Source of the DNA: Filomicrobium sp.
GTDB taxonomy: Bacteria > Pseudomonadota > Alphaproteobacteria > Rhizobiales > Hyphomicrobiaceae
Assembly (NCBI GenBank): GCA_017792465.1
Contig: CP051234.1
Location: forward strand, 436,606 to 500,605
Direction: 5' to 3'
Length of the DNA stretch: 64,000 nucleotides
The notes beneath the pieces were generated by a model. That model was given only the letters and a program-made list of their open reading frames with translations, had not been told where the DNA came from and made no database searches. A program made the position numbers and the translations under genes. This document shows positions 16,235 to 32,294 of this stretch, in pieces. Positions within the stretch are counted from its first letter, which is position 1. Each line of letters opens with the position of its first letter.

Positions 16235-17008
16235 TTATTTTGACGCGTCGGCCAGAAATGCCTGTTCGCGGTGGTCGCTGCCATCCAGTGGCGCCGGGCC
16301 GGCGTAGCTGACTTCGACCTGGGTTGTTCCGAAGTGCGTGAAGCCAAGTTCTTCCGCGACCCGTGCGGAGACATCGATGATACGGCTCTTTTTGAAAGGT
16401 CCGCGATCGTTGATTCGGACCATCACCTTGCGGCCGTTTGCGAGGTTGGTCACGTAGGCATAAGACGGCAAGGGAAGGGTCCTATGGGCGGCCGTCAACG
16501 CGTGCATGTCATAAGTTTCGCCGTTCGCCGTTTTCTTGCCGTGGAATGCGTCGCCGTACCAGGACGCGACGCCGCGTTCGACATATTTGGGATCATGGCG
16601 CGGAACGTATCTGACGCCCTTGATCAGGTAGGGTTTCCCAATCTTGCGATAACCTCCGCCTTTGGGAAGCGACTGGGTCATAAGGCTGGCTTTTTGCAGC
16701 TTCGGTGCAGGCGTGCTGATCGCCGGCGGCGGAACGGCCAACAGCGAACTCCTGCTGGAGCGGTCGGAGAGATCCGGTGCGGTCATGACCTGGCTCTGCC
16801 AGGCGTCGGCGCTTTGCCAGTTTTCAGCATTTTGCAACGGCACGGCGAACGACGCGGGCGGCGGCAGCTGGGAGCAGGCTGCGAGACCTGCTGCAGCGAT
16901 GGCCAGAGCAACGGGTTGCATAGCCCGCCGCAATAGCTTTGCAGCGCCCGACTTTGCGGTGCTGCTTGCTCTCGACATTGATCCGGTAGATCTGCGGAAC
17001 CATTTCAT
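16235..17008 (-). CDS. rlpA: RlpA family septal-ring lipoprotein
   Basis: RlpA proteins are lipoproteins with a double-psi beta-barrel. Some members are lytic transglycosylases acting on denuded glycan at septa. The lipobox is GLAAC with the lipidated cysteine at C45. The barrel contains GVASWYGDAFHGKKTANGE, then RTLPLPSYAYV and VRINDRGPF. No C-terminal SPOR domain is present. In-frame starts exist at M1, M11 and M30; M30 would give a standard-length lipoprotein signal, so the true start may be internal. Confidence 0.9.
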   Translation of the reverse strand: MKWFRRSTGSMSRASSTAKSGAAKLLRRAMQPVALAIAAAGLAACSQLPPPASFAVPLQNAENWQSADAWQSQVMTAPDLSDRSSRSSLLAVPPPAISTPAPKLQKASLMTQSLPKGGGYRKIGKPYLIKGVRYVPRHDPKYVERGVASWYGDAFHGKKTANGETYDMHALTAAHRTLPLPSYAYVTNLANGRKVMVRINDRGPFKKSRIIDVSARVAEELGFTHFGTTQVEVSYAGPAPLDGSDHREQAFLADASK

Positions 17009-17153
17009 GGATGCCGATTAAGAATACTCGGGGCCACGAAGCAAGAGCAGGGAGGCCACACCGGGGCATCAATTCACAGGTCTCTTGATGCTGGGACGCG
17101 TTGCCGCTAGGTTCCCTCGCCTGTCGTCTCAGCTCATGGCTTGCGGGCGGCAC

Positions 17154-17243
<90 letters not shown>

Positions 17244-17283
17244 TAGTTATGTCCTCACGCGCTTGTCGCGCTCCGGACGGGGC

Positions 17284-17354
17284 GGCACTCATGCCGGGTC
17301 GCCTTGCTCCCTAGTCCTGCGGGCTTTTGGGCGGGTTCGGATTTCGTCTCTTAT
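17284..17354 (+). repeat. Left partial copy of dispersed repeat family
   Basis: The stretch reading GGGTCGCCTT, then TGCGGGCTTTTGGG and TTCGTCTCTTATC matches, with scattered changes, the right-hand end of the copy at 18825-19043 (GGGTCGCCTT, TGCGGGCTTTGGGG, TTCGTCCCTCATC). It abuts the A-type segment at 17355, so the units appear to be joined head to tail. Confidence 0.6.
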
Positions 17355-17452
17355 CGTCCGCCATATTTGGCTCACGGGCCAAAGGCCCTCCGGTCATGGC
17401 AGAGCCATGCTTCGCATGGACGGGGCGGCGCTTTATATCTCCCAACATTCGG
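17355..17452 (+). repeat. Repeat segment A, copy 1 (left half)
   Basis: These 98 bases match 18825-18922 over the same length with about five differences. Both begin CGTCCGCCATATTTGGCTC, contain GGCC palindromes and end CCCAACATTCGG. Here the match stops abruptly at CAACATTCGG (17443-17452). The sequence that follows in the other copy reappears at 18149, after a gene-carrying insert. Confidence 0.9.
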
Positions 17453-17529
17453 TATCTGTTTGTCTGCCTCAATCGCATATTTGGAAACAGCGTCGCTCTT
17501 GGATGACGTCAGCGAAGGGCCAGAAGAAG

Positions 17530-18006
17530 TCATTCATCCGGTCTCTTGTACTCTTTATCTGCCAGCGGTCCCAGCAAGGGGCCATACATCCACCTATTGA
17601 GCAAACCATCAGAGCTTTGGATGCCGACAATATCCATGATCTGCTCCAAATACGTGAGAAATCTTTCGCGGTCTTCCGTGTCGAAAAGCTCGTTTTGCGC
17701 CATTGTTCTCTCGAATTCACTCAAAACGAAGCCTTTTGACGGCCGGGATGGCAGGCCATCAATCAAGCGTTTTATCAAGTCGTTTAGTTGTGACTGTGCC
17801 AACAAACGATCCGTCTCTGGCCTCACTCCATTGAACGATGTTCCAGGCTCTTCAGAGTATTTTGGTTTTTCAAGAAGTGTATGGAGTTGCGCTAGATTGT
17901 CATTTGTAAGCTCGAGTTTTTCCTCTCGCTGCGACATGGGGTACATCCAAACAGAACTGGCAAGAATCGCGATCAGGATAAATGTAACAAGCTTGAATTT
18001 GCTCAT
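17530..18006 (-). CDS. DUF4844-like secreted or membrane-anchored protein
   Basis: A 158-residue protein of unknown function. One N-terminal hydrophobic segment (MSKFKLVTFILIAILASSV) would export or anchor it. The C-terminal part, with LNDLIKRLIDGLPSRPSKGFVL then FLTYLEQIMDIVGIQSSDGLLN split across it, resembles my recollection of DUF4844. I cannot confirm that without a search. I chose the ATG at 18006; a TTG two codons upstream is also open. The gene is visibly less GC-rich than its neighbours. It lies entirely inside a block that interrupts a dispersed repeat, so it is probably acquired. Confidence 0.6.
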   Translation of the reverse strand: MSKFKLVTFILIAILASSVWMYPMSQREEKLELTNDNLAQLHTLLEKPKYSEEPGTSFNGVRPETDRLLAQSQLNDLIKRLIDGLPSRPSKGFVLSEFERTMAQNELFDTEDRERFLTYLEQIMDIVGIQSSDGLLNRWMYGPLLGPLADKEYKRPDE

Positions 18007-18148
18007 TGGCAACTAGAAACCCTACGTCTTTCCTAACCATCACTGCATATTGCAGCAGAACTAGTGTAACAGACGCATAGAATGTCGGCAGTGGGTCACT
18101 TGCGGGCTGCTCATTTTTCAAGAATGCCTGACCGCTTTGAACTCTATC

Positions 18149-18248
18149 CAATATTCGGCAGGCCGATGTTAGGTTTCTTCTCGATCCAACATTCAGCAAG
18201 CCGATGTTGGGATAGCGCAGGGTCGCGTTTTTCACGCGCCCTGCGGGC
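18149..18248 (+). repeat. Repeat right half, copy 1
   Basis: These 100 bases match 18913-19012 over the same length at about 83% by eye. They contain two tandem palindromes of the form ACATTCGGC..GCCGATGT, then TTTTTCACGCGCC. The copy starts with CAATATTCGG (18149-18158), nearly repeating the CAACATTCGG that ends segment A at 17452. Joined to 17355-17452 it would rebuild a 188-base unit, exactly the length of the intact copy. Confidence 0.85.
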
Positions 18249-18357
18249 GTCCTGCCGCCGAGACGTGGTGTTGGCGTATATAACGTCGGGCGTCTGGGGC
18301 TTGGGTCGCACTGGCTGATAGACTTGAAGGGAACCTGTCCTTCCCCTATCTGTCGGG

Positions 18358-18405
18358 CGAAAGGACGACCTTTTCTTCGTTGAGATTGCACGCGGGACGG
18401 CCCGG
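18358..18405 (+). promoter_or_regulatory. Guanidine-II (mini-ykkC) riboswitch
   Basis: Two short hairpins with ACGR tetraloops lie just upstream of a small multidrug resistance gene. Hairpin 1 is AAAGG-ACGA-CCTTT at 18360-18373 (loop 18365-18368). Hairpin 2 is CGGG-ACGG-CCCG at 18393-18404 (loop 18397-18400). GAGG at 18415-18418 and the ATG at 18428 follow closely. This matches the known mini-ykkC architecture, in which guanidine docks the two ACGR loops and frees the ribosome site. The linked gene type is exactly the expected one. Confidence 0.85.
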
Positions 18406-18427
18406 TCAATATCAGAGGTGGCTGAGT

Positions 18428-18748
18428 ATGGCTTGGATTTGTCTTGTCGTTGCGGGAGTTCTTGAGGTCGCCTGGGCGTACTCGATGAAGAAGTCAGACG
18501 GTTTCACGCTTCTTGTGCCGAGCGCCATAACGATCGTGTTGATGATAGCCAGCTTCGCATTGTTATCGGTTTCGATGAAAACATTGCCGCTTGGTACGGC
18601 CTATTCCGTGTGGACGGGGATTGGCGCGGCAGGGGCTTTCATTGTTGGAATTGCATTTTTGGGCGAAGCGGCAACGCCGATGCGAATACTGGCGGCAGGA
18701 TTCATCTTGATGGGAATAGTGTTGATGAAACTTGCAAGCAGTCCGTAA
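18428..18748 (+). CDS. gdx: SMR family guanidinium exporter (SugE/Gdx)
   Basis: A 106-residue small multidrug resistance protein with four transmembrane helices that works as an antiparallel dimer, exchanging cation for protons. The essential glutamate is E13 in AGVLEVAWAYSMKKS. The Gdx/SugE subtype is indicated by GTAYSVWTGIGA and FLGEAATP. Members of this subtype export guanidinium rather than broad quaternary amines. The mini-ykkC riboswitch directly upstream supports that substrate. The ATG at 18428 has GAGG nine bases upstream. Repeat copies of one family lie on both sides of the gene. Confidence 0.9.
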   Translation: MAWICLVVAGVLEVAWAYSMKKSDGFTLLVPSAITIVLMIASFALLSVSMKTLPLGTAYSVWTGIGAAGAFIVGIAFLGEAATPMRILAAGFILMGIVLMKLASSP

Positions 18749-18824
18749 CAGGCCGCGTGCGCTCGCGCACTGCGGCTGGGGGGCGGCCTTCGCTATGGCT
18801 GCGGCTTCGAACTCTGTTGCTCGC

Positions 18825-19043
18825 CGTCCGCCATATTTGGCTCACGGGCCGAAGGCCCTCCGGTCATGGCAGAGCCATGCTTCGAATGGACGGGGCGGTG
18901 CTTTGTTTCTCCCAACATTCGGCAGGCCGATGTTCGTTTTAAATTCGACCCAACATTCGGCAAGCCGATGTTGGAGGTGCGCTGGGTCGCCTTTTTCACG
19001 CGCCGTGCGGGCTTTGGGGTAGGCTCGTACTTCGTCCCTCATC
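18825..19043 (+). repeat. Intact copy of dispersed repeat (copy 2)
   Basis: This is the uninterrupted reference copy. Positions 18825-18922 match 17355-17452; 18913-19012 match 18149-18248; and 19004-19043 resembles 17318-17354. It contains two palindromic hairpins, ACATTCGGC-AG-GCCGATGT and CAACATTCGGC-AA-GCCGATGTTG. There is no open reading frame of note. It separates gdx from the convergent glycosyltransferase gene. The rest of the spacer to 19228 shows nothing I recognise. Confidence 0.85.
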
Positions 19044-19228
19044 CTTGCATCGTTATCGGTTGCGCCTTCGTTCGATAACGCTGCGCAAGCTCGTGTTGAG
19101 TCAGGATGCCCACACAGCATCTGGCCCATTGGCTTCGTCGGTGGCGTTAGGACGACAAGCGCACGCAGTCGGCGGTCGGGCAACTGGCTGTGCGAGCCGC
19201 GGAGATTTCAATATCACGCCGATTGGGT

Positions 19229-20269
19229 TCAGCCGGTCTGATGGCTCGCGGCCCTGTTTCTCCGGAATATGCCTCGCAGCATGTTGGCAACAGGTGAATG
19301 GAAAATCATGCTGGCCAAGATCCGGCCTCTCAATGGTAGTCCATATCGTGTTCCCCAGGCCGCTGTATCGAAGCCGAGGAGAAAAGGGAGCATTTTGTAA
19401 AATGCCTGGCGCTCAAGTGGCGTATTGCGGCGCCGGCGCCAAACTCTGAACCAAAAATAGGTGTGCACGACACCGTTGCCGATCGTTGAATTTTGTTGGG
19501 CGCAAGCTTTCGACTGCGCTGTAATATCGGCTTCTGGAGGCGGCTCAGGAATTTTCAAATGAAGTGCGTCGAATTCGGAAGCCAGCGCTGCCCACTCTTG
19601 CGTTTCCAATTTCTGCGTTGAGACAGCTCCCTCGTGCGCGCGGTACTTCAGCACTAGCTTCGGCGGATTATGGATTTCTCCATGCTCGCTTAGCCTAATG
19701 TAGAGGTCATAGTCTTCTGCATAGGGAAACCCTTCTCGATATCCACCGATTTCGCGCAGCGTTTTCGTGCGTATCATTACGAGCGGATGGACCGCCACCG
19801 CAATTGCCGGCGGGAAAGTTTCAAGGTTCGTACGCGTTCTCCAGCCGCCCGTCGTTATTGTGGATTTATGGCCGTCATCGCCAAACGTCTCCGCGTAGCC
19901 GCCGACCAGGACACATTCCGGGTGGTCTGACAAATATTGGCATTGAAACTGAAAGCGGTCCTCCAAAGCTATGTCGTCAGCGTCCATGCGAGCAATAAAC
20001 TGCCCCGAGGCATGTTTGAGCCCGGTATTCAATGCAGAAACAATCCCTGCATTCTCTTGGCGCAATGGCACAATGCGCTGATCCCTTGCAGCATAGTGAC
20101 TGATTATCTGCGGTGTTGCGTCCGTGCTGCCGTCATCGATGATAATAAATTCAAGATCACTCTTGGTCTGAGCCAAAATCGACTCTATCGCTTCTGACAA
20201 ATAACGCTCACCATTAAATACTGGCATCAGGCATGAAATTGATGCGACGGTATTGGTTTCATTCAACAC
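19229..20269 (-). CDS. Family 2 glycosyltransferase
   Basis: A GT-A fold glycosyltransferase of about 346 aa. The N-terminal nucleotide-sugar domain shows SCLMPVFNGERYLSEAIES, IIIDDGSTD, and the metal-binding DxD in RMDADDIALEDR; the later GYREGFPYAEDYDL is also typical. It probably adds a sugar to a surface glycan, but no acceptor can be read. The start is uncertain: GTG at 20269 has AAGGG ten bases upstream, while TTG codons at 20287 and 20266 are alternatives. No in-frame ATG precedes the domain. It stands alone beside the repeat patch and is less GC-rich than the housekeeping genes. Confidence 0.85.
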   Translation of the reverse strand: MLNETNTVASISCLMPVFNGERYLSEAIESILAQTKSDLEFIIIDDGSTDATPQIISHYAARDQRIVPLRQENAGIVSALNTGLKHASGQFIARMDADDIALEDRFQFQCQYLSDHPECVLVGGYAETFGDDGHKSTITTGGWRTRTNLETFPPAIAVAVHPLVMIRTKTLREIGGYREGFPYAEDYDLYIRLSEHGEIHNPPKLVLKYRAHEGAVSTQKLETQEWAALASEFDALHLKIPEPPPEADITAQSKACAQQNSTIGNGVVHTYFWFRVWRRRRNTPLERQAFYKMLPFLLGFDTAAWGTRYGLPLRGRILASMIFHSPVANMLRGIFRRNRAASHQTG

Positions 20270-20821
20270 GCGACATACACCCTTCAAATAATTATTGAAA
20301 CAATGAGTGCAGATTATTGTCAGGTTATTGCGACGTCAAACTTGATCTTTGTTGTCGATCCATTTCCTTGTACTTGGCCGGACCTCTATGTTTGTTTTTT
20401 AGGCGGTCGCCAATATTTTGGCGGTTCTGATGAACAATTGATCACACAAAACAGGGTTTCTTATTATTCTGGATAGGCAGACCTGGTGGGTGCGCCAGCC
20501 TGATCAGATAGCGACGCGAGCAAAGGTCCAGTTGGGTTGCTGGCGAGGCATCTTTTCCTGACAGCATCCCTCCAGTCCGTCATGCGATCGTGATTTCGTT
20601 GGTCTGCAAAGCTGCCTGGGGGAGCCTTCACCTACCAGAGCTAGCTTGGAAGCCACGGTTACGAAGCGCGGATTGCCGGGGCCTCAGCGTATCGCTCTTT
20701 CTTGCCACGGTGAAAAAAGTTCGTGGTCGGTTAATGTGGTGTTCCCTGGGGTACGTAAAGGCGTTTTGGGTTGTGCCAACTTGCACTCAACAAGACTTTT
20801 GAGCGCAAGGGACAACGCGAC
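20270..20821. other. Non-coding stretch
   Basis: About 550 bases between the glycosyltransferase start and the hydrolase start. The left part is AT-rich and probably holds the glycosyltransferase promoter. A 70-codon frame at 20590-20802 has no ribosome site and no recognisable content. I see no RNA gene or repeat. Confidence 0.5.
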
Positions 20822-21751
20822 ATGATGCTTTCCGAACAGGGCAACGAGCCCAGAAACTTCTTTTCGAATTCCGCACAGTCTGAAAAGCGTGCCGGGGATC
20901 GGGCCTATGAACGTTTCTGCACGCCGCACCTTTCTGACCGCCGTGCCGAAAATCACGATGCGCTGATTGAGCGTTCGCGCAAACATCTCGGTCACGCGGT
21001 TCAAAGAGTGATCGAAACCAGAGACGGCCCGGTCAGCACCTATGTGCTTGAGCCAGACAGCAACTCAGACAACTCGGCGCCGGTGAAAACGGTGCTTCTT
21101 ATTCATGGCTGGACCTGTGAAGCGTCATTCATGTCGGTCATTGCTGAGAGCCTGCGTCGCTCGGGTTTTCGTGTGCTGCTGATCGACCTGCCGGCGCATG
21201 GGTTGAGCCCCGGGACCAAGACAAGCATCGTGGCTTGTGCACGTGCGGTGACCGACGTCATCGACGCGTTCGGTCCCATCGATTTTACGGTTTCGCATTC
21301 GTTGGGCGGCTTCGTATCGTTGTTGGCATCCGCAGGTGGTGCAGCTGTCAAAAAGGCCCGGCCGATGAGCGGTTATGTGTTCATCTCGATGCCGAACGAT
21401 TTCCGCGACATCACGACCGAATTTACCGATGACCTCGGCCTGTCGAAGCAAGCCGCGCGTCAGTTCGAAACACGTCTTGAAGTAACCGCTGGTTATCCTT
21501 TGAGTGAGCTGAACGCTGAAAGTTTTCTGGGTCGGATTGACCGCCCAGCGCTGCTTATTCACTGCGAGGATGATGACGAAATTCCTGTCGACTGCGCCTA
21601 CGATGTCGCTGCCTCGACAGAGCTGGCGCAACTGGAAACAGTGCGCGGTCTTGGGCACCGTAAGATCCTTTATGCGTCGCGTGTGGCACGAAGTGCTGCG
21701 GGTTTTTTGAAGCAATTGTCGGCGACGCAGGATGAGGAGAAAGCGGCCTAG
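20822..21751 (+). CDS. Alpha/beta hydrolase
   Basis: A single-domain alpha/beta hydrolase of 309 aa. The oxyanion segment is LLIHGWTCEASFM, the nucleophile elbow VSHSLGGF with S160, the acid in HCEDDDEIP and the histidine in GLGHRKIL. The elbow is S-H-S-L-G, so the first glycine of the GxSxG pattern is a serine. I chose the ATG at 20822 with AAGGGA nine bases upstream; the frame is open for 17 codons before it. The substrate is unknown. It converges with another hydrolase gene 70 bases downstream. Confidence 0.85.
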   Translation: MMLSEQGNEPRNFFSNSAQSEKRAGDRAYERFCTPHLSDRRAENHDALIERSRKHLGHAVQRVIETRDGPVSTYVLEPDSNSDNSAPVKTVLLIHGWTCEASFMSVIAESLRRSGFRVLLIDLPAHGLSPGTKTSIVACARAVTDVIDAFGPIDFTVSHSLGGFVSLLASAGGAAVKKARPMSGYVFISMPNDFRDITTEFTDDLGLSKQAARQFETRLEVTAGYPLSELNAESFLGRIDRPALLIHCEDDDEIPVDCAYDVAASTELAQLETVRGLGHRKILYASRVARSAAGFLKQLSATQDEEKAA

Positions 21752-21821
21752 TCATTCGTCGGTGGCTCCGGCTTGTGGTTGGTTGCCGTGGGATTGATGT
21801 CCGCAGGGGACTGTCCAAGAA

Positions 21822-22742
21822 CTATCCAAAGAAACCGGTCTTTCTCATCCAGGCATCAAACCATCCGGGCCAATCCAACGCTGGCGCGCCTCCTGCAGTT
21901 AGCGGGAAGCCGTGCCTGCCGTTCGGCAGAAGATGGAATTCAACTGATACTCCGGCGCGCTGGCAGGCCGCCGCCATGATCTGCGAGTGTGCCGGATTGG
22001 CGATGTCGTCGTCGGCGGCGTGGACCAGGAAGACCGGCGGGCAACTGGCATTCACATGCGTCTCGACGGACCAGTTCGCGCTGTCGGCGGGACTGGGTTT
22101 CTCACCGATAAGCAAACGCCGCGTCCAGGTTTTGTCGAAGGGCGGTTTGAGCGTGATGACGGGATAGATGAGGGCGGCCAGCGAAGGTCGCGCGGATCTT
22201 TCGTCGATTGCGTCGATGGGCGGGTAGGAGGCGAAATCCGATCGCACCGCAGCTATCCCGGCCAAGTGGCCGCCAGCGGAAAATCCCAGAAGACCCAGGC
22301 GTTCGGGATCGAGCCGATAGCGATCTGCGCTAGCCCGGATCAGCCGGATTGCGCGCTGAATATCCTGAAGTGGTGCCGAGGCGCCGGCGTTCCAGTCTTC
22401 GCGCGGCAGGCGGTAGGTCAGGACGAACGTGGTTATACCGCGCGCGGTAAGCCAGGTGGCGGCAGGATTGGCTTCCTTGGCAATCTGGATGCGTTTGTAG
22501 CCGCCGCCGGCTGCGATCAGAACCGCCGATCCGTTTGGGTTCAGTGGCGCAACGACCTTGAGGCTTGGGGTAGCGATATTGCTAATCGCGCCTCTTGGGC
22601 TGATCAGGACCGGGCCGGTCGGCCCGCCGCCACCGGGTGGGCTGTCAGGCCACAGTTCTAGCGATCTACCGCTCGCAACTGCGAACTGCGGAGAGATTGC
22701 CATGGCAGCCGAACCGAGCATGACCGAGCGTCGTGTGAGCAT
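21822..22742 (-). CDS. Secreted alpha/beta hydrolase (BD-FAE/lipase-like)
   Basis: An exported esterase-like protein of 306 aa. The N-terminus MLTRRSVMLGSAAMAIS has a twin-arginine-like pair and ends near AVAS. The oxyanion stretch is AAGGGYK, the nucleophile elbow GFSAGGH with S155, the acid in HAADDDIANP and the histidine in NGRHGFPL. This pattern is shared with xylan/feruloyl esterase and acetyl-esterase relatives. The substrate is not predictable. The neighbouring hydrolase on the other strand is unrelated in sequence. Confidence 0.85.
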   Translation of the reverse strand: MLTRRSVMLGSAAMAISPQFAVASGRSLELWPDSPPGGGGPTGPVLISPRGAISNIATPSLKVVAPLNPNGSAVLIAAGGGYKRIQIAKEANPAATWLTARGITTFVLTYRLPREDWNAGASAPLQDIQRAIRLIRASADRYRLDPERLGLLGFSAGGHLAGIAAVRSDFASYPPIDAIDERSARPSLAALIYPVITLKPPFDKTWTRRLLIGEKPSPADSANWSVETHVNASCPPVFLVHAADDDIANPAHSQIMAAACQRAGVSVEFHLLPNGRHGFPLTAGGAPALDWPGWFDAWMRKTGFFG

Positions 22743-23124
22743 TTCAGCCGCCTCAAAAGAAGCCCAGCGCGCGCAGATGCGTTAAGGCTCTCCGCGCTAT
22801 TCTAGCTCTTTTTTCTCGATCCGGGTGCGCCGTTCTCATGACAGAATTGGCTTTTCAAGGCTCGCCAGCGGTCGTTCTTGCCAGCGATGACGCGGTCGGC
22901 GTGATCGCGGCTCATGAGCGGATGGGAGTGTCGAGCAGCCTTTGCCTTTTGCGGTAGAGAGAGCGCTGTTTGACGAGTTTTGGAATAAATTGAGGCTCAT
23001 AGGTGTGGCGCAGCGATCACCGCGGGGCGTGGAAAAGCTGTTAATAAGTGACTGAGTTTTTTTGTTTTGAGTAAGTATTTCGGGGCCTTAGCTTTCTTGA
23101 GCGCAGGCCGATACCGGTGTTGTT
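22743..23124. other. Intergenic region with a short unexplained frame
   Basis: About 380 bases between divergent genes, probably holding both promoters. A 39-codon frame from ATG 22838 to about 22957 begins MTELAFQGSPAVVLASDD and looks protein-like, but it stops early, has no clear ribosome site and matches nothing I know. It may be a gene remnant. Confidence 0.35.
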
Positions 23125-23970
23125 ATGCGTTGTGTTGTCCAAGTCCTTGTGGGCTCGTGCCTGCTCCTGGGTGTTCCATCATCGCCATCTCAAGCGCAAG
23201 ATTGGAGCGGTGCCTATGCCGGTATTCACGCCGGCCATCGCTGGGCTGACCTGGATCTTTCGACACCTCCATATACCTTCTCTGACGGAACCGGCGGCAC
23301 CGTCTACATCCCGGCGCGCAATGAGCAATTCAGCTTGCGCGGCGCAATGGGCGGTTTTCATGCCGGATACAATACCTTTCTGACGCCGCAATTTCTAATT
23401 GGCATCGAGGCTGACATTACGGCTGCCAACGACCAGCGCTCGAGTAGCGCAGCCTTTTCCACCTCACACACAGAAACCAGCTTTCAAACGATTACGACGA
23501 TCACGCCGGGTGATCCGTGCGATGAAGGATGTGAATGCGAATGTGAATCTCCGCCGCCGGTGGTGACGACCACGCGCGTGCCTGTCCAGACAACCGTCGT
23601 GACGAACCAGCAGCGCAATTCATCGGTTGAACTGGTTTGGCAGGGGACGGTTCGCACGCGTTTCGGCTGGGTTGCAGGCAATTGGCTCTACTATGGCACG
23701 GCCGGTATCGCCTTCACGGGTTTCAGCTGGTCGGAAACGCTGAGCGTCGCCGATGGCGCTTCGCAGACCGTCTCGAAAAATGGTGTGCTGACGGGTGTCG
23801 TTTTCGGCGGCGGTGTCGAGACATGGATCGGTGAGAACTTGCTCTTCAGGGTGGAATACCTGCATGAGGACTTCGGCTCGACGACTGTGCCGCTGGCTTT
23901 CACCGCCAAGACCGGTGAGATCGACGTGGATGTCGATAAGGTGCGTGTCGGGCTTAGTCTCGCGTTTTGA
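23125..23970 (+). CDS. Outer-membrane beta-barrel protein with Cys-rich loop
   Basis: A 281-residue protein of the Omp25/OmpA-like beta-barrel group common in Hyphomicrobiales. A signal peptide ends near PSQAQ, the start of the barrel is DWSGAYAGIHAGHRW, and the last strand ends in LSLAF with the terminal Phe expected for BAM-assisted insertion. The odd feature is an insertion at about residues 120-165 holding C132, C136, C138 and C140 among acidic residues, followed by Pro/Thr/Val-rich sequence. This should sit in a loop and could bind metal or form disulfides. Function is unknown. Confidence 0.8.
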   Translation: MRCVVQVLVGSCLLLGVPSSPSQAQDWSGAYAGIHAGHRWADLDLSTPPYTFSDGTGGTVYIPARNEQFSLRGAMGGFHAGYNTFLTPQFLIGIEADITAANDQRSSSAAFSTSHTETSFQTITTITPGDPCDEGCECECESPPPVVTTTRVPVQTTVVTNQQRNSSVELVWQGTVRTRFGWVAGNWLYYGTAGIAFTGFSWSETLSVADGASQTVSKNGVLTGVVFGGGVETWIGENLLFRVEYLHEDFGSTTVPLAFTAKTGEIDVDVDKVRVGLSLAF

Positions 23971-24091
23971 GGTTTGGGTCTGACGGGGCTGATGGTGATT
24001 TCGCTTGGCGTTGCTGGGTGTTTGAGCCTGAACTGGCTTTCGTCCCAAATCCACTGAATGCGCCTAATTCGTCTTTGCCGAGTTTAGTCTG

Positions 24092-24655
24092 CTATTTTTT
24101 TGCCGGCTTTTTTTGGGTTTCAGTTTTGCTCTTGCCGGACTTTTTGGGCTTTTCGGTCGCTTTGGTCGCGGCCGAAGGTTCTGCGTCCGCTTTGACGACG
24201 CCCGTCTTCACCCCGATCGCATAGAGCTTCCAAAGCCCGTCGACGACTTCGTAGCCAAGCGTAAAACTGACCTGCTCAGGCTTGCTATCGAATATGCCGA
24301 CCAGGACTAACCGGCCTTGCGCGTCGATCGCGGCTGGCCGTACCAGCTTGGGTGCGAGTATGACGACTGGCGAAAGATCGATATTGCGGTGGCGTTCGGC
24401 TTGGAAAATTTCAGCCAGGCGGGCGGGGGTGTTGGCCTTTTGAAAACTCGGGCTGCCTAGATCGCGCAGGACGCTGTAGTTGCCAGTCTGATTGGCATGA
24501 TTGTACGCGATCAGGGACGTCTTGATCATGATTGAGAGTTGTAGCGGCGGCGGGACATTGACGGACCGGGCTTGGCCGTGGGCTGCCATCGTCAAGCAGA
24601 CGAGCGATAGAAGAGCTGCGCCCAGTCGATGAGAAAGTCGTCGCAAGAAGATCAT
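24092..24655 (-). CDS. Secreted protein of unknown function with Lys-rich tail
   Basis: A 187-residue exported protein. From the ATG at 24655 a signal peptide runs to about MAAHGQA. The middle part (VVDGLWKLYAIGV near the end) resembles small NTF2-like periplasmic proteins, but I cannot place it in a named family. The last 30 residues are Lys/Pro/Ala-rich and probably disordered. The frame is open further upstream to 24733, but only the later start gives a proper signal peptide. It lies just downstream of the giant adhesin, on the same strand, about 185 bases past the adhesin stop. Confidence 0.6.
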   Translation of the reverse strand: MIFLRRLSHRLGAALLSLVCLTMAAHGQARSVNVPPPLQLSIMIKTSLIAYNHANQTGNYSVLRDLGSPSFQKANTPARLAEIFQAERHRNIDLSPVVILAPKLVRPAAIDAQGRLVLVGIFDSKPEQVSFTLGYEVVDGLWKLYAIGVKTGVVKADAEPSAATKATEKPKKSGKSKTETQKKPAKK

Positions 24656-24840
24656 TGCTGCGTCGAACACCTTTGGATACCGCGTGCTTCGAACTGATAG
24701 CAGGTGAAGGACCGAATTGCTATCAAGCGACATGCGGGCCAGGCGCGCTCATTTGCGCGCCCAGCCGTGCGATTTTCACGCAGCCTGAGATCGACGTGAG
24801 GGTGAACCGGCAGAGCTGCAAGGCGACTGCCGTCCGGCGG

Positions 24841-27800
24841 TTACCAGGTCCATTGGACGCCCGCGCGTCCGGCGACCACGCCGTTTTGCCGGTAGTCCAT
24901 GAACTCGGAAAAGCCCCAGCCTATTCCCGCGTCGAGCGACAGCCGATCGCCTTTGACGATCAGGCTATTGCCAAGCACTCCCATGGCGCTGGCGCCGAAC
25001 GCGTTGGCGGAGCTGTCGTAGCTGTCGAATGCGCCCCACCCCACGCGCATCCCGAACCGCTCGCCGCGCGTCAGCGATGGGCTTTCTATCGCCATCGCCA
25101 CGGCAACGCCGGCTTGTACACGGGCCAGCCCTTTGAAGACAGCTCCGCCGTCTGACGCTAGATTGCCCCCTGCGTCAGTTGTCGGCAGTTCGAGCAGTCC
25201 CGATTGGGCCCGCTTGCTTTCCTGCGATGTGATACCCGGCATCGTGTAGGTGTTGGATGCCGTGCCGAAGACTTGCTGATCGGCGCGGGTTGTCGTCGCG
25301 CGGTAACCGAATGCGGCGGAGTTGTCGTAGGCCGCTGTTGCGCCAGGGCCGACGGCGGTCGAGCGGTAGCCGGATGCATTCGAGCTTCTGCCCAATGCTG
25401 CCGAGCTATTGCCGGTTGCGGATGCGAGATCGCCAATTGCCGTACCGCTATTGGATGCAGTCGCCATATATCCGACGGCGACTGAGTTAGTTGCGACGGC
25501 GCCGGTGCCGATGGCGATGGTGTTGGGCCCCGTCGACTGGGCATTGCCGATGGCGATTGATCCATTTCCGGTTGCCAGGGCATTAAATCCAAGTCCGGTC
25601 GCGTTTGTGCCTGAAGCAATCGCATTGGTCCCAAGCGATGTCGCATTGGTGCCGGTCGATTGCGCATCCGTACCAAGCGCCAATGCATTTTCGGCGGTGG
25701 CCTGAGACCGAATTCCGCCAGCGATACTGGATATGCCGCTTGCCGCTCCACCCTGGAGGGCCAGAGCATCAGTCGCGCTTGCGGTTGTCGTGTTGTTGGA
25801 CGTGCCACCAAATGCCGAAGCGCCGACTGCGGTTGAGGACGCTCCGTTGCCGATGGCGATTGAACTCGTCATGGTCGCCTGCGCCTGAAAGCCGTTGATG
25901 CCGCCGCCAATCGCGATTGCTGCTGCGCCGCTGGCGGTTGCGTTACGGCCGACGGAAATCGCCGTCGAAGCAGTGGAACTGGCGGCATTGCCGATCGAGA
26001 TCGATTGTATCGAATCTGCCGTTGCGTTGCCGATTGCGACAGAGTCGTCGCCATCTGCGTTAGCCCCCAGACCGATGCCGACCGCGCGGCGCCCGTCCGT
26101 GTCGACGTCGCGGCCGATGGCGATGGAATCGATTTGGTTTGCGTCTGCGGCTTGACCGACAGCGATGCCGCCGGATACTGCGACGCCGGCTTCCGCGCCG
26201 AGGGCGACTGCGTTGTCTATGCCATCGCCAATGACGATGCCCCGGCCGACTGCGGTTACGTCGGTCGATCCATTCACGCCGCCAACGGCGATTGTGGTCC
26301 CGTTGCCGATTGCTACGCCGCCTTCGGCAACGTCAGAAATCATTGAATCTGCGCCGACAGCGGTTCCGCTTTCGGCAGAGACTTGCGAGCCGTGTCCGAC
26401 GGCTGTGTTGGCGGTTTGGGTTGCGCGCGAATTGTTGCCAATCGAGACGCCTCCGTCGTTGAGATCGCCGGCAGAGATGCCGATGGAGACGCCAGACGTC
26501 GTTTGGGCTCCGTTGCCCAGCGCGACGCCGGTCGTTGCATCGGAATCCGGTCCTATGGCTATGCCGCCTGCGCCCGTCGCGCTGGCATCCGAGCCGACTG
26601 CGATGGCTTCGTCGGCGCCGGTTGTCACACGTTGGCCGATTGCGACGGTTTCGTTGCCGGTGACGGTGGTGCTGTCACCGAGAATGATATTGTCGTCGAC
26701 AGGAGCAACGTTGGTGCCGACATCGTTGTTGTTGCCGATCACGACGTTGTCGTTGCCGAAGATGTCGTTGTTGTTGCCACCAACGAAGTTGTCGTTGCCG
26801 TCTATGGTGATTGGGTCGCCGATTGCCGTGTTGTTGTTGCCGTCGATCTGATGCCCGCTGCCGATGGCAACGTTATTCATCCCGCTATTGAGAATGTTGA
26901 TGCCGCTGCCGAGCAGGCTGTTGTTGCCGCCGCTGCCGCTGTCGTTGTTGGCGCCGACAACGGTATCGTTGACACCCGCGCCAACCGACATGTAGCCGAC
27001 GACAGTGCTGTTGTCGCCGGACGCCGTGGAGCTGGCGCCGACCGCCGTAGAGTTGAGGCCGGATGCGGTCGCGTTTGCGCCGATTGCGGTCGCGTTGTCG
27101 TTCGTTGCCATGGCGCCGGCGCCGATCGCCGTCGCGCCGCTACCGTTCGCGACGGCACCGGCACCGTATGCGGTTGCCCCGTCTCCGCCGGTCGGCGTTC
27201 CCCCGGTTGCACTCGCGCCAGTACCGACAGCCGTATCGCCTTCGTTATCAGCGTTCGCGCCGTTGCCGACTGCGATGGCGTCTGGATCGCCGGTCGAAGC
27301 GGGCTGGCCGCCGTAGCCCGCTCCTGCCAGGCTTCCGCCGCCCAAGGTGATGCCTTCGTAGTAGCTGATGGCGTCCTCGTTCCCGAGCCGAATTGCGCCG
27401 CTAAACGAGGAGATGCCAAGGCCGGTCGAGAGGTTTGCGTAACCTCTGATGGTCCCGGTGAAGTCCGTGTTACATTCTGGAAGGTCGTTCTGGGCCGCCT
27501 GGACGCTGTTGGAGGCAATCGATACGGCGTCGGCGGCGATGCCTAGCGAATCTGCGCCAATCTCTCCTGGCTCATCGATGAGCAGGATATCGGTTGCCAG
27601 AGCGACGATATTACCGGCGAGCGAGACGGCGTCACTTGTGAAGTCGAGGCCGGTAATGGCTGGGTCGAGCTGGGCTGCGCAGGTGCCGCCTGAGACGCCC
27701 GAGATCGGATTGTTGGCCAGATAATTGTTGACGGCATTTTGCGTGTAGGCCGCCTTGTCGTTGTCGTCCGGAACGTTCGAATTCATCGGACCATTGGTGT

Positions 27801-28347
27801 TGGTCACACCGTCTGCTTCGACAGGGTTATTGTCCCAATCGCTTTGCGCATCTTTGGTGACTTGTGCGAGATCGTCGCCGAGAGCTTTGGCGTCAGCCTC
27901 GCTGATTACGGTTCCGCCCAGCGCAACGTTGGTTTCAAAAAACGGCGCACCGGTTGGGGGCGACGTCAGGGGGGCTGGATTGACGGTGACCTGCGCGTTC
28001 GCAGACATCGGCGTGAAGAGCAGCAGAAGGCAACTGAGTGCACTTAGGGCCGCGGACTTGGCGACGTGGTTTCCGCAGGTGTCTTCGGAAACGCCGTTGG
28101 TGCGCGCAACGTCAACTAGGCGATCTTGGTTCGATTGCCACGCGATGAAGAACCCGAATTGACGGCAGACGTTTAGAAAAGTTGCTCGCAGCCCAAACCA
28201 GCAAGCCATAACGCGGTTACTCCATCCATAACGCTTACTCCCCCGCACTTTTTGTTTTTTTGCCGCCAGAGATATGTCCTTATTTTTTTGAGCGAAAATC
28301 CACAGAATTTTTTGGTTAAGACGCGGGATTGATAAGCATTGTGACAT
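24841..28347 (-). CDS. Trimeric autotransporter adhesin (YadA-like)
   Basis: A type Vc surface adhesin of up to 1168 aa. After an unusually long leader (hydrophobic core at about residues 93-118, ending MSANA), a stalk/head region follows. From about residue 350 to 1000 it is built of YadA-head repeats with a period near 14 residues (AIG..A.A.G..S.A.G). In the middle the repeats become Asn/Asp-rich (GNNND). The last 70 or so residues are the membrane anchor, ending AGVQWTW. The start is uncertain: ATG at 28347 gives the full leader, while ATG at 28209 with GGAG upstream gives a shorter one. The trimer should bind surfaces or other cells. No partner gene is adjacent. Confidence 0.92.
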   Translation of the reverse strand: MSQCLSIPRLNQKILWIFAQKNKDISLAAKKQKVRGSKRYGWSNRVMACWFGLRATFLNVCRQFGFFIAWQSNQDRLVDVARTNGVSEDTCGNHVAKSAALSALSCLLLLFTPMSANAQVTVNPAPLTSPPTGAPFFETNVALGGTVISEADAKALGDDLAQVTKDAQSDWDNNPVEADGVTNTNGPMNSNVPDDNDKAAYTQNAVNNYLANNPISGVSGGTCAAQLDPAITGLDFTSDAVSLAGNIVALATDILLIDEPGEIGADSLGIAADAVSIASNSVQAAQNDLPECNTDFTGTIRGYANLSTGLGISSFSGAIRLGNEDAISYYEGITLGGGSLAGAGYGGQPASTGDPDAIAVGNGANADNEGDTAVGTGASATGGTPTGGDGATAYGAGAVANGSGATAIGAGAMATNDNATAIGANATASGLNSTAVGASSTASGDNSTVVGYMSVGAGVNDTVVGANNDSGSGGNNSLLGSGINILNSGMNNVAIGSGHQIDGNNNTAIGDPITIDGNDNFVGGNNNDIFGNDNVVIGNNNDVGTNVAPVDDNIILGDSTTVTGNETVAIGQRVTTGADEAIAVGSDASATGAGGIAIGPDSDATTGVALGNGAQTTSGVSIGISAGDLNDGGVSIGNNSRATQTANTAVGHGSQVSAESGTAVGADSMISDVAEGGVAIGNGTTIAVGGVNGSTDVTAVGRGIVIGDGIDNAVALGAEAGVAVSGGIAVGQAADANQIDSIAIGRDVDTDGRRAVGIGLGANADGDDSVAIGNATADSIQSISIGNAASSTASTAISVGRNATASGAAAIAIGGGINGFQAQATMTSSIAIGNGASSTAVGASAFGGTSNNTTTASATDALALQGGAASGISSIAGGIRSQATAENALALGTDAQSTGTNATSLGTNAIASGTNATGLGFNALATGNGSIAIGNAQSTGPNTIAIGTGAVATNSVAVGYMATASNSGTAIGDLASATGNSSAALGRSSNASGYRSTAVGPGATAAYDNSAAFGYRATTTRADQQVFGTASNTYTMPGITSQESKRAQSGLLELPTTDAGGNLASDGGAVFKGLARVQAGVAVAMAIESPSLTRGERFGMRVGWGAFDSYDSSANAFGASAMGVLGNSLIVKGDRLSLDAGIGWGFSEFMDYRQNGVVAGRAGVQWTW

Positions 28348-28481
28348 AACGGTGTCAGCGTTGAACGCGCGTCAGTAGGCGGGCGGTCGCAAGTGCCGTT
28401 TCGTCAAGGGCTCGGGCTTGCCGACGTGGCAGGATCTTTTTGAAGGGCTTTGGGCGTCAGATATCGGTTGACGGTTTTGCA
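28348..28481. other. Adhesin upstream region
   Basis: Short non-coding stretch between the adhesin start and the terminator of the next gene. It probably carries the adhesin promoter. No specific operator is recognised. Confidence 0.35.
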
Positions 28482-28518
28482 ATAGAAAACCCGCAGTCCG
28501 TATAACGAAACTGCGGGT
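28482..28518 (-). terminator. Rho-independent terminator of the 129-aa gene
   Basis: ACCCGCAGT (28489-28497) and ACTGCGGGT (28510-28518) form a 9-bp stem with a 12-base loop. Read on the minus strand it is followed by TTTTCTATT. It lies about 60 bases after the stop of the gene at 28579-28968. Confidence 0.8.
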
Positions 28519-28578
28519 CAAATTTCTCAATGTGATCTTTTTGAAATCGGCGACTGGAAGGGCCGGACTTCCCTCGGA

Positions 28579-28968
28579 TCAGAAGCGGTGTTTGACCGTA
28601 CCGCGGATCTGCAGATCGTCGTCGCTGTAGCTCAACGGAGGTTCTGCGCTGTCGGTGGCGTCTGCCGGGCTATCGGTTGCCCCGTACAGAAGCTCCAGGC
28701 CGAAATCCATTTTCGGCAAAACGCCGAGACTTCCCAGTCCGGGAATGAAGACCTCGGTTCCCGTTTTGGTTTTGGGAGTCGGCGTAGCAAATTCCATCTC
28801 GGCGCCGATGCCGCTCTGAGACGGCGTGCGCGAATTGTCGATGACGATACCAGGCGCCGGCGCATGGTGCTGGGTGGCACCGCCGGCTTGCTGTTCTTCA
28901 AACGCAATTGCTGGGAGGGCAGCCAATACAATGGCGGCCGCAATGCCCAACTGCTTCAAGCGTCTCAT
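28579..28968 (-). CDS. Small exported protein of unknown function
   Basis: A 129-residue protein with a clear signal peptide (KQLGIAAAIVLAALPAIA) and a terminal Phe in GTVKHRF, as in outer-membrane strands. The body is Pro/Thr/Asp-rich and contains MDFGLELLYG and LQIRGTVKHRF, which could be two beta strands. It is too short for a classic eight-strand barrel. It is monocistronic, with its own terminator, and sits between the adhesin and the porins. I do not recognise a family. Confidence 0.65.
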   Translation of the reverse strand: MRRLKQLGIAAAIVLAALPAIAFEEQQAGGATQHHAPAPGIVIDNSRTPSQSGIGAEMEFATPTPKTKTGTEVFIPGLGSLGVLPKMDFGLELLYGATDSPADATDSAEPPLSYSDDDLQIRGTVKHRF

Positions 28969-29207: not shown

Positions 29208-30368
29208 TCAGAACTTAATGCGGCCACCTGCGACAACGGTGTCGAAGTCGGCGTCAACACCTGGAGCAGCAGCGTCCTGGATGTCGTAGCTGCGGTAGGA
29301 GATGAAGAGATCCATTGCAGCTGCGTCGATCTTCTGGACAGCGCCCAGACCCCAGTAGTTGGCTGAGTCGTTGTCGTCGTCTTCGAATTCACCGCCCATA
29401 CCGAACAGGGTGGTTTTACCGATGGCGAAGAACCGGCGCTCAAGACCACCGCTGAGGAACCAGAAGCTTTCGTCGTCCAGCCAGGTATCGCGTTCGCGAT
29501 GACCAGCCGAAGCCGTGACGAATACGCCGGAAGGCATGTGCATGATGGACAGGCCACCGTTTACAGCCTGGGTCGGCGGATCGAAGGTGCCGCCAGCGCC
29601 GTTGTTGGTGTCAGTGTCTTCGCTATAGGCGATACCAGCAGCGATCTTGAAGCCACGGATTTCACCGGCATAGCGCAGAGCGACATCCCAGTAGTCGTCT
29701 TCACCCCAGGCTGCCGAAAGCAGGAAGCCGGAGAAGGTTGGCGTATCGTAACGAACGATGTTCTTACGGTTGCCCTCGAAGTTGGTCATCGCAGGACCAC
29801 CAAGGTCGTTCGAAATGATCGCGCCACCAGCCTGCGACGAGGACATGCCGTCGGCGAGGTTGGAGTTGGCAACGTTGATTTCGGCGATGCCTGAGCTTGC
29901 CGTGTCGGCGAGACCGACGCGGATTTTACCGAGGCGCTTGCTGGCCAAATACCAGTGAGCCTGACGGAATTCCGGGAGGTCCTGGCCTTCGTCGTCGTTG
30001 ACGCGAACTTTCGTTGCGTCAGCCTGCTGCCACTGCAGTTCGATCTGGTAACCGGCGCTCCATTCGGAGTTGATCGAAGCTTTGCCCTTGAAGCCGAAGC
30101 GCGTACCGGAGGTCTGCGGATCGACGACGTAGGTGTTGCTTTCGTTGACGCCGTTGCCGTCTGCGTCCCAGAACATTACAGCCGTGGTGACCTGACCGTA
30201 GATGGTCAGCGAAACTTTGCGGTTACCCTTGCGGGCTGTCGTGGCTTCAAGTTCTGCAACGCGTTCTTCGAGGTCTGCGCAGCAATCGCCGCCAAGGTCA
30301 GCTGCGAGGACGTTCGTCGAGAACAGCCCGGCTACTGCGGTCATGGCGACCAGAGAGATTCTTTTCAT
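29208..30368 (-). CDS. Outer-membrane porin (copy 1)
   Basis: A 386-residue general porin of the alphaproteobacterial type. The ATG at 30368 follows GGGGGA. The signal peptide ends VLAA, then LGGDCCADLEERVAELEATT forms a short coiled coil with a cysteine pair. The barrel begins VSLTIYGQVTTAVMFWD and ends AGGRIKF with the terminal Phe. Strongly similar to the porin at 31113-32294 in order and sequence throughout, so the two arose by duplication. It should form passive channels for small solutes. It has its own upstream region and terminator. Confidence 0.93.
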   Translation of the reverse strand: MKRISLVAMTAVAGLFSTNVLAADLGGDCCADLEERVAELEATTARKGNRKVSLTIYGQVTTAVMFWDADGNGVNESNTYVVDPQTSGTRFGFKGKASINSEWSAGYQIELQWQQADATKVRVNDDEGQDLPEFRQAHWYLASKRLGKIRVGLADTASSGIAEINVANSNLADGMSSSQAGGAIISNDLGGPAMTNFEGNRKNIVRYDTPTFSGFLLSAAWGEDDYWDVALRYAGEIRGFKIAAGIAYSEDTDTNNGAGGTFDPPTQAVNGGLSIMHMPSGVFVTASAGHRERDTWLDDESFWFLSGGLERRFFAIGKTTLFGMGGEFEDDDNDSANYWGLGAVQKIDAAAMDLFISYRSYDIQDAAAPGVDADFDTVVAGGRIKF

Positions 30369-31049
30369 AATTCCCCCAAATCCATGGTCAGTTTGACAAT
30401 TAACGAGCCGGAGCACCGCACAGCGCGTACAGCCGGTCACGGGGCGCTCAACACTCGCGTTGCGCTCGACAAAGAGGCAACGGCAGGAGCTGAAGGCACC
30501 TACGCCGGACACAACCAACACAAACTAGGAAACTAAACTCTGGCCGCTGCTAGCATTTGCCGACTTTAAGCCAGCACGTAAGCCGAGACTCGACTCAGCG
30601 GCGTTGGGGAGAAGCTAGCCCCACCCGTATGCAAGAAGGAATAGTGGATTGGACTTTCACCCAGCTTTGAGAGCCATCCGTTGCTCGGCCGCCACAAAAT
30701 GCGGCACAAAAGCGGCGGATCAGCACCATTTTGCGTGTTCTGAGACGCTGTAGGCCGATTTTGGCTGTTCAAAATTCGTGCGCGGGACCGCTTTGGATCC
30801 GAATTTAGCGAATCAAATCCGAGTCTTGGAAGGGTATGGAGTGCATATTGGCGGCGCAGTCGGCATGTCCGATTCCGCCGGGCTCAAACAGCGTTCATTC
30901 AGGTTGGAAGCAGCGGGGTTGGTGTTCGCCCGGGGTAGTTGAAGCTTAGTGATTGGCGCTTCGGAACTCACGATGCCCAGCTCCGTAGGTAGGCCCGGAC
31001 TACAACGCCGCCGGTGGTTTTGGGTGTTATCCCCAATCCTGTGGAGCCA
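30369..31049. other. Long non-coding region between the porins
   Basis: About 680 bases with no believable gene on either strand. The part next to 30368 should hold the porin 1 promoter and leader, and the length would allow complex control. No named operator or riboswitch is visible. Confidence 0.5.
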
Positions 31050-31081
31050 TAAGAAAAGGGCCACTCTTGAGAGCGGCCCTT
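31050..31081 (-). terminator. Terminator after porin 2
   Basis: AAGGGCC (31056-31062) and GGCCCTT (31075-31081) with an inner CTC/GAG extension form a strong hairpin. On the minus strand it is followed by TTTTCTTAT, 32 bases past the porin stop. Confidence 0.85.
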
Positions 31082-31112
31082 CCTATTAATTCACGCTTGC
31101 AGTCATCAAGTC

Positions 31113-32294
31113 TTAGAACTTGATGCGGCCACCACCGACGACGGTGTCGAATTCAGGGTCTGCGCCTGGAGCAGCGGCGTCCTGAATGTCGTAGTGACGG
31201 TAGGAGATGAACAGATCCATCGCAGCTGCGTCGATTTTCTGAACGACACCACCACCGTAGTAGTATGCGGAGTCATCGTCGTCGTCTTGGAATTCACCAG
31301 CCATACCGAAGAGGGAGGTTTTACCAAGCGAAGACCAGCGCTGCTCGATACCAGCGTTGACGAACCAGAAGCTTTCGTCGTCAATCCAGCCGTCGCGCTG
31401 ACGATGACCGCCAGATGCCGTTGCGAAGAGGCCGGTTGCTACGTGCTGGATCGACAGGCCGCCGTTGATGGCTTCGACCGGTGGATCAAACGTGCCGCCT
31501 GCGCCGTTGTTGCTGTCGGTATCTTCCGAGTATGCAACACCAGCAGCGATCTTGAAGCCGCCAACTTCGCCAGCGTAACGCAGAGCGACATCCCAGTAGT
31601 CGTCTTCGCCCCAAGCTGCCGACATGATGAAGCCAGCCATCGTTGGCGTATCGTAACGAACGACGTTCTTACGGTTGCCTTCGAAGTTGGTCATCGACGG
31701 ACCGCCAAGGTCGCCGGAGATGATTGCAGCACCAGCCTGCGACGACGACATGCCGTCAGCGATGTTGGTGTTGGCAACGTTGATTTCGGCGATGCCGGAG
31801 CTTGCCGTATCGGCGAGACCAACGCGGATTTTACCGAGGGTCTTGGACTTCAAGTACCAGTGAGCCTGACGGAACTCTGGGAGATCCTGACCTTCGTCGC
31901 TGTCGACGGTGACTTTCGTCGCGTCAGCCTGCTGCCACTGCAGCTCGATCTGGTAACCAGCCGAAACGTCTGGCGTGATCTTCGCATTGCCTTTGAAACC
32001 GAAGCGCGTACCGGAAGTCTGAGGGTCGACAACGTAGGTGTTGCTTTCGTCTACGCCGTTTCCGTCAGCGTCCCAGAACATCACAGCCGTCGTAACCTGG
32101 CCGTAGATGGTGAGCGAAACTTTGCGGTTGCCTTTACGAGCCGTAGTGGCTTCCAGTTCTGCAACGCGCTCTTCGAGATCTGCGCAGCAATCGCCGCCCA
32201 AATCAGCAGCCTTGGCGGACACGCCGCCGAACGCCAGCCCTGCAACCGCGGCAAGCGCGATCATGCTGGTCGATTTGAAGAGTCCCCCGAACAT
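31113..32294 (-). CDS. Outer-membrane porin (copy 2)
   Basis: A 393-residue porin paralogous to the one at 29208-30368. The ATG at 32294 follows AGGAGAAG. The signal peptide ends VSAKAA, then comes the same LGGDCCADLEERVAELEATT coiled-coil segment and the strand VSLTIYGQVTTAVMFWD. It ends VGGGRIKF. Differences from copy 1 cluster in places such as YYYGGGVV and QHVATGLFATASGGH, likely loops or pore-facing parts. Separate promoter and terminator allow independent regulation of the pair. Confidence 0.93.
   Translation of the reverse strand: MFGGLFKSTSMIALAAVAGLAFGGVSAKAADLGGDCCADLEERVAELEATTARKGNRKVSLTIYGQVTTAVMFWDADGNGVDESNTYVVDPQTSGTRFGFKGNAKITPDVSAGYQIELQWQQADATKVTVDSDEGQDLPEFRQAHWYLKSKTLGKIRVGLADTASSGIAEINVANTNIADGMSSSQAGAAIISGDLGGPSMTNFEGNRKNVVRYDTPTMAGFIMSAAWGEDDYWDVALRYAGEVGGFKIAAGVAYSEDTDSNNGAGGTFDPPVEAINGGLSIQHVATGLFATASGGHRQRDGWIDDESFWFVNAGIEQRWSSLGKTSLFGMAGEFQDDDDDSAYYYGGGVVQKIDAAAMDLFISYRHYDIQDAAAPGADPEFDTVVGGGRIKF

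Follow-up and report, generated by a model that had tools for sequence, protein, structure and literature searches.

A foreign-looking gene at the tip of a hairpin in a tRNA-linked palindromic repeat array

In integron cassettes a single gene is joined at a palindromic site, and rhizobial intergenic mosaic elements (RIME), which belong to the same order as the present strain, are mosaics of palindromes situated between genes. The locus described here shares with integron cassettes the joining of one gene at a palindromic site, but no integron integrase over the cut-off and no second cassette were found; the likeness to RIME is one of general organization. Repetitive extragenic palindromic (REP) elements are targets of insertion sequences (Tobes & Pareja, 2006; PMC1525189), and palindromic repeats are to that extent already known as hot spots for foreign DNA. 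There, as at the present locus, palindromic intergenic repeats are broken at the hairpin axis, short direct repeats are present and the joined flanks rebuild the repeat. The inserts in that study are, however, transposase-bearing insertion sequences, several copies of which lie at one point, whereas the insert described here is a single gene with no recognised transposase and was seen once. Di Nocera (2013; PMC3733652) describes GTAG/CGTC-tagged palindromic repeats, which are likewise small palindromes in dimers and clusters, and some dimer partners are separated by inserted DNA. The main text of that paper does not contain the words Hyphomicrobium or Rhizobiales, and the genome studied here, in contrast, has no Y1 transposase. 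A literature search combining Hyphomicrobium with repetitive extragenic palindromic returned no title on this repeat, which leaves room for an earlier description of it. The present locus offers a clean case, a gene without a recognised mobility gene at a hairpin tip in a tRNA-linked array, and raises the question of whether hairpin breakage alone can let new genes into a genome. The practical gain is modest, as this is one event with a proposed mechanism only.

The window, which is the whole stretch of 64 000 bases analysed, comprises bases 436606–500605 of a genome assembled as one contig of 4470904 bases. An intact 188-base repeat (copy 2) lies at 18825–19012, and the complete unit to which it belongs (unit 2; head, hairpins H1 and H2, and tail) was traced on the forward strand by genome search and local alignment from 18825 to 19045. 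The initial annotation had described this copy as continuous and an upstream copy (copy 1, unit 1) as split in two, and both its coordinates and its identities hold. The left half (17355–17452, forward strand), consisting of the head and the left arm of H1, is identical to 18825–18922 at 93 of 98 positions (5 differences), and the right half (18148–18248, forward strand), with H1, H2 and the start of the tail, is identical to 18912–19012 at 85 of 101 (16 differences). In a whole-genome search the halves match copy 2 with E-values of 1.8e-38 and 3.2e-25, and the match is thus not due to chance. They stand in the correct order and on the correct strand and, when joined, rebuild the intact copy. 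Their divergence from copy 2 is unequal (5/98 versus 16/101; Fisher p = 0.02). The intervening insert (17453–18147, 695 bases) is bounded by an 11-base direct repeat with one mismatch, found by sequence comparison: CCAACATTCGG at 17442–17452 (forward strand), which is the left arm of the hairpin, and CCAATATTCGG at 18148–18158, which forms the first 11 bases of the right half. The 10-base version of the repeat gives an insert of 696 bases.

The insert is less GC-rich than its surroundings, as had been noticed from the letters alone (46.8 %, compared with 61.0 % at 16500–17452 and 58.1 % at 18159–19200). The reported lack of terminal inverted repeats is also borne out. Over the first 20 bases the two ends have 6 in common, local scores for ends of 20, 30 and 50 bases were matched by 1598, 1947 and 1150 of 2000 random pairs, and none of the 16 short inverted pairs listed links the two ends of the insert. 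No second copy of the insert was found in nine genus genomes, this one included (next best E 0.02). The insert does not have the make-up usual for an insertion sequence, the DUF4844 gene being the only gene recognised in it and the ends not being inverted repeats.

This gene (17530–18006, reverse strand) encodes a protein of 158 amino acids which, as suggested initially, belongs to DUF4844 (Pfam PF16133, E 3.2e-27, 95.5 bits, cut-off 25). The protein was not found in the 58 other relatives searched, among them eight other genus genomes. Of 397 genomes in the order, three, this one among them, have a DUF4844 match above the cut-off. The other two proteins, 53 and 54 % identical, appear to come from a Methyloligella assembly and a metagenome assembly of an unclassified member of the Hyphomicrobiales; no further relatives were found in a named collection. 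The low GC content, the failure to find the protein in 58 relatives and the rarity of DUF4844 in the order together suggest that the insert is foreign and that the gene probably came from another bacterium. Among solved structures there is one clear relative (PDB 4l3u, E 4.3e-13); being itself an uncharacterized protein, it gives no function. The predicted structural model is of moderate confidence (pLDDT 71.8) and has a long N-terminal helix, which in this model is probably a membrane anchor. Carriage by a phage was rejected, as no protein match was obtained in phages or viral contigs, and so was carriage by a plasmid, the insert having no plasmid DNA match and its protein one weak match, to a DUF4844 protein of Chryseobacterium (33 % across 53 % of the query length). 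A defence gene was likewise rejected after PADLOC returned no match for the four proteins given, and no paper naming DUF4844 was found in a literature search. Beside a DUF4844 gene in another family of the order (L082) lies a mosaic module, GCGCCTTCGGTTGCCCAC (L082 1349–1367), of which a run of up to 19 bases is identical in the present genome; judged from this module, the repeat family appears to reach beyond the genus.

The repeat is a mosaic unit of head, hairpins and tail, and not a single fixed repeat. Pieces of it recur across the genome and the genus. With the intact copy as query, a whole-genome search gave 24 matches, nearly all partial, and a slightly longer query had matches in 14 of the 59 genomes searched, this one included. 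The hairpin arm CCAACAYTCGG has 24 sites in this genome, compared with two for a reversed control, and at 20 of the 24 the right arm is present. When lengthened by one base, the arm occurs in eight of nine genus genomes, with 34 sites in G002, 51 in G003 and 36 in G008, often in tandem. Arrays occur in these three genomes, and relatives also have tandem hairpins at regular spacing. Hairpins or hairpin pairs without heads are common among the 24 sites of the present genome. Short palindromes are therefore found here in many copies, single, paired and in tandem, as in REP-like or interspersed mosaic palindromic repeats.

A rule-based count found a head and a tail close by at 6 of the 24 sites. 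Copy 2 was added separately, because each of its hairpins is scored as a site of its own, with the head close to one and the tail close to the other, which brings the uninterrupted head–hairpin–tail units of this genome to seven; three further distinct ones occur in relatives. A stricter pattern gave nine distinct units (six in this genome and three in relatives), and copy 2 is the only one among them to contain two hairpins. The view that a gene was inserted in a dispersed palindromic repeat is supported by these data, and the interruption looks derived, since uninterrupted units recur. The same recurrence makes it unlikely that copy 2 arose by loss of the gene. Together with the restriction of two hairpins to copy 2, it suggests a sister relationship between copies 1 and 2 and an uninterrupted order that is older than the interrupted one.

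The break lies where stem and loop of the first hairpin meet, the final base of the left half being the last one of the stem. In copy 2, H1 is predicted to fold with a 4-base loop, CAGG, at −4 kcal/mol (9 of 200 shuffles as good) and H2 at −7.8 kcal/mol (0/200). Folding of H1 is poor in the right half of copy 1 (−2.3 kcal/mol, 45/200), where H2 gives −5 kcal/mol (3/200), and no fold was obtained for the left half when extended into the first part of the insert (−0.2 kcal/mol). Left and right pieces both fit copy 2, including the CAGG and CAAG loops. The direct repeat reported at the break is present. Its 10-mer is, however, the hairpin's own left arm and not an arbitrary target; every hairpin of this type starts with the sequence, so that any further hairpin would supply it, and a target-site duplication is not proven.

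Near-tip breaks are not unique to this copy, as three of the 24 sites in the genome (L094, L096 and L103) also have a left arm without a right arm and run into other sequence; these involve short stretches, with no gene-sized insert. At L094, near 1500 (1110900 in the genome), a different palindrome apparently sits inside the tip of a CCAACACTCGGC hairpin. What may be an orphan right arm follows about 36 bases later, and this may therefore be a nested hairpin.

The sequence past the junctions was searched for a second head before the right half or for hairpins after the left half. Over 60–110 bases nothing exceeded the level of random pieces: local alignment scores were reached by 1677 and 1764 of 2000 window pieces, and junction-anchored homology tests were equalled by 67 of 400 and 104 of 1000 random pieces. 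A short anchored test after the left half found nothing similar (287/1500). Immediately ahead of the right half there is a weak resemblance to hairpin spacers (equalled by 46 of 1500 random pieces over four comparisons; best single comparison 20/3000, with one comparator set one base off), and from this resemblance the two halves may stem from different hairpins.

Repeat copies interrupted by other genes, which the initial annotation proposed to look for, were sought in the relatives as well as in this genome. The loci examined, which overlap, contained 248 arm hits, from which nine within 60 bases of a locus end were dropped, and these represent 137 distinct left arms. The loci cover all arm sites of G002 (34) and G003 (51), 33 of 36 in G008, four of seven in G004, all four in G005, all three in G006 and the one in G007. 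A right arm with at most two mismatches accompanies 122 of the left arms. Among the 15 without one, three (L040, L148 and L213) have a right arm at three mismatches, and several resemble chance matches inside genes. An exact right arm as far downstream as a gene's length was found for the window copy alone, where 759 bases separate the left arm from the H2 right arm; the count covers exact right arms within 2500 bases or up to the locus end, and decayed ones could be missed. At L040 an exact right arm lies 48 bases downstream.

These results do not favour the proposal that a cassette was moved in trans by an enzyme recognising the repeat, as no other such split was found among the 137 left arms, the insert is single-copy in the nine genus genomes, and neither an integron integrase over the cut-off nor a Y1/RAYT transposase was detected. 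The best match to the integron integrase model TIGR02249 in this genome reaches 81.4 bits, under the cut-off of 265. Matches as weak as this also occur in 14 of 14 control genomes, which suggests that they look like ordinary tyrosine recombinases. Y1 (HUH) transposase (PF01797) has no match in the genome and was detected in 5 of 14 control genomes. Readings as an integron cassette or as a REP with its RAYT are accordingly not supported, for want of the integrase and of the Y1 transposase, respectively.

The repeat array begins behind a tRNA-Ser (TGA) gene (17154–17243, forward strand, predicted by ARAGORN), and three mosaic units lie downstream of it. Unit 0, a short unit without a hairpin found by local alignment (17244–17355, forward strand), follows the tRNA directly, and its tail (17296–17355) matches the copy 2 tail over 63 bases with a score of 31. 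Units 1 and 2 then follow, each starting with a copy of the tRNA-Ser end, GTCCGCCATA; the end of the tRNA gene itself, continued into the bases that follow, is TTCCGCCATA. A tRNA-Arg (ACG) gene elsewhere (L233, 1429–1800; approximately 2923998–2924370 in the genome) has the same plan without cargo genes, with two tandem mosaic units behind it. The second of these has a hairpin and is headed by GCGCGCCAT, where the tRNA end is GTGCGCCAT. The pattern of a CGCCA end followed by a unit head occurs at 12 places, compared with three for a reversed control. Two of these are directly behind tRNAs and three are the extra heads (two here and one behind tRNA-Arg); the remaining seven have no tRNA in the 3-kb locus. 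The simplest reading is that the tRNA end was copied in tandem together with the unit.

The tRNA-Ser locus was read in six same-genus relatives, with G001 and G005 left out, and rlpA adjoins the tRNA in all six. No empty allele was found among them; a short unit, located no more than 420 bases behind the tRNA, was seen, by eye, only in G003. In G008, a gene matching window 28579–28968 sits about 340 bases behind the tRNA, so that approximately 11 kb (17250–28560) present here is missing at the same place in that genome. This may be either a gain here or a loss in G008.

A second stretch (18249–18800) apparently lies inside the tail of unit 1. The tail resembles copy 2 up to TGCGGGC at 18248, where the similarity stops, and the 25 bases before the copy 2 head agree with the end of the unit 0 tail at 15 of 25 positions, equalled by 6 of 20 000 random pieces, a length picked after the match had been seen (15, 20, 30 and 35 bases gave 836, 61, 14 and 63 of 20 000). 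The stop and the 25-base match are suggestive of an insertion of this stretch in the unit 1 tail. It contains a Guanidine-II (mini-ykkC) riboswitch (18357–18405, forward strand; Rfam RF01068, 35 bits, gathering threshold 32) and a gene for a sugE-type SMR transporter (18428–18748, forward strand; PF00893, E 5.3e-28), for which the best NCBIfam model is SugE at 119 bits, under its cut-off of 126. As the riboswitch lies 5' of the gene, the transporter is probably a guanidinium exporter. Both features (18357–18748) belong to the sequence that G008 lacks at this position.

Taken as a whole, the locus has the look of one isolated event at a site prone to insertion, and not of a new system for moving genes. 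We give an even chance to the reading that single foreign genes were captured at this tRNA-linked palindromic array, probably through repair of a broken hairpin. Foreign DNA with one gene would have been taken in at the first hairpin of the middle unit, at its tip, splitting the unit: a nuclease would open the hairpin near the tip, the opened ends would take up an incoming DNA fragment during break repair, and the left arm would be copied by fill-in or slippage. Hairpin-cleaving nucleases such as SbcCD could have a role at palindromes. The sugE stretch would probably have entered the tail of unit 1 in a second event. This break-repair capture is favoured by the end of the left half at the last stem base before the predicted H1 loop of copy 2, by the half hairpins at L094, L096 and L103, by the recurrence of uninterrupted units and by the way in which the halves rebuild copy 2. 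The GC-poor, single-copy insert with its rare protein, the variable stretch behind the tRNA, the copies of tRNA 3' ends that head extra units at both tRNA-Ser and tRNA-Arg, and the lack of inverted ends, of a Y1 transposase and of an integron integrase over the cut-off point in the same direction. Against it stand the poor H1 fold in the right half, the lack of an empty allele in the six relatives, and the unequal divergence of the halves, which would not be expected had a single unit been split at a later time. The weak spacer resemblance before the right half (46/1500) also counts against it, as does the 11-base direct repeat, which would be expected from a transposase too.

The direct repeat at both ends of the insert is indeed what an insertion-sequence transposase, lost or acting in trans, would leave on placing the segment at the symmetry axis of the hairpin and duplicating 10–11 bases. 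ISPsy8 and ISRm22 hit the axis of REP palindromes with repeats of 3 and 6 bases (Tobes & Pareja, 2006; PMC1525189). We consider this rather unlikely here, given an insert that has no terminal inverted repeats, holds no recognised gene other than DUF4844 and is unrepeated in nine genus genomes, with no second split found among the 137 left arms. Shuffling of modules is similarly improbable. It would have two separate mosaic pieces, the first with a half hairpin at its end and the second beginning at a hairpin, flank the gene, with the 10-mer as an ordinary hairpin start, and would accommodate the half hairpins at three other sites of the 24, the common headless hairpins and pairs, the regularly spaced tandem hairpins of relatives and the unequal divergence of the halves. 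It does not sit well with the fit of the pieces to copy 2 in order, strand, break point and CAGG and CAAG loops, nor with the occurrence of two hairpins only in copy 2 among nine distinct units. Homologous recombination between hairpin repeats of host and donor, the donor gene being already flanked by repeats, would draw on the presence of repeats across the genus and on the L082 gene, which adjoins a mosaic module common to this genome; with no DUF4844 protein found in the eight other genus genomes and arms of 11–25 bases, which are short for homologous recombination, it is very unlikely. A dedicated cassette recombinase is less likely than break-repair capture. Most improbable in our judgement is a scheme in which the tRNA-linked units serve as acceptor sites, with tRNA-end copies heading the units and hairpins marking the joints, and in which unit 1 would have taken up the DUF4844 gene and the riboswitch–sugE stretch through a recombinase acting on hairpins or on the tRNA end.

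In addition to the DUF4844 and sugE genes, the approximately 11-kb stretch encodes a glycosyltransferase (gene at 19229), two hydrolases, an outer-membrane protein, an unnamed protein and a YadA-type protein; no transposase or integrase was found among the scanned proteins of 17250–28560. The YadA-type protein (24841–28347; 1168 residues), which carries YadA head repeats and lies in the part missing from the G008 site, is probably a trimeric adhesin. Further downstream, 29208–32339 encodes two tandem paralogues of 437 and 408 amino acids, with no Pfam match at E 0.001, which are also paired in G008.
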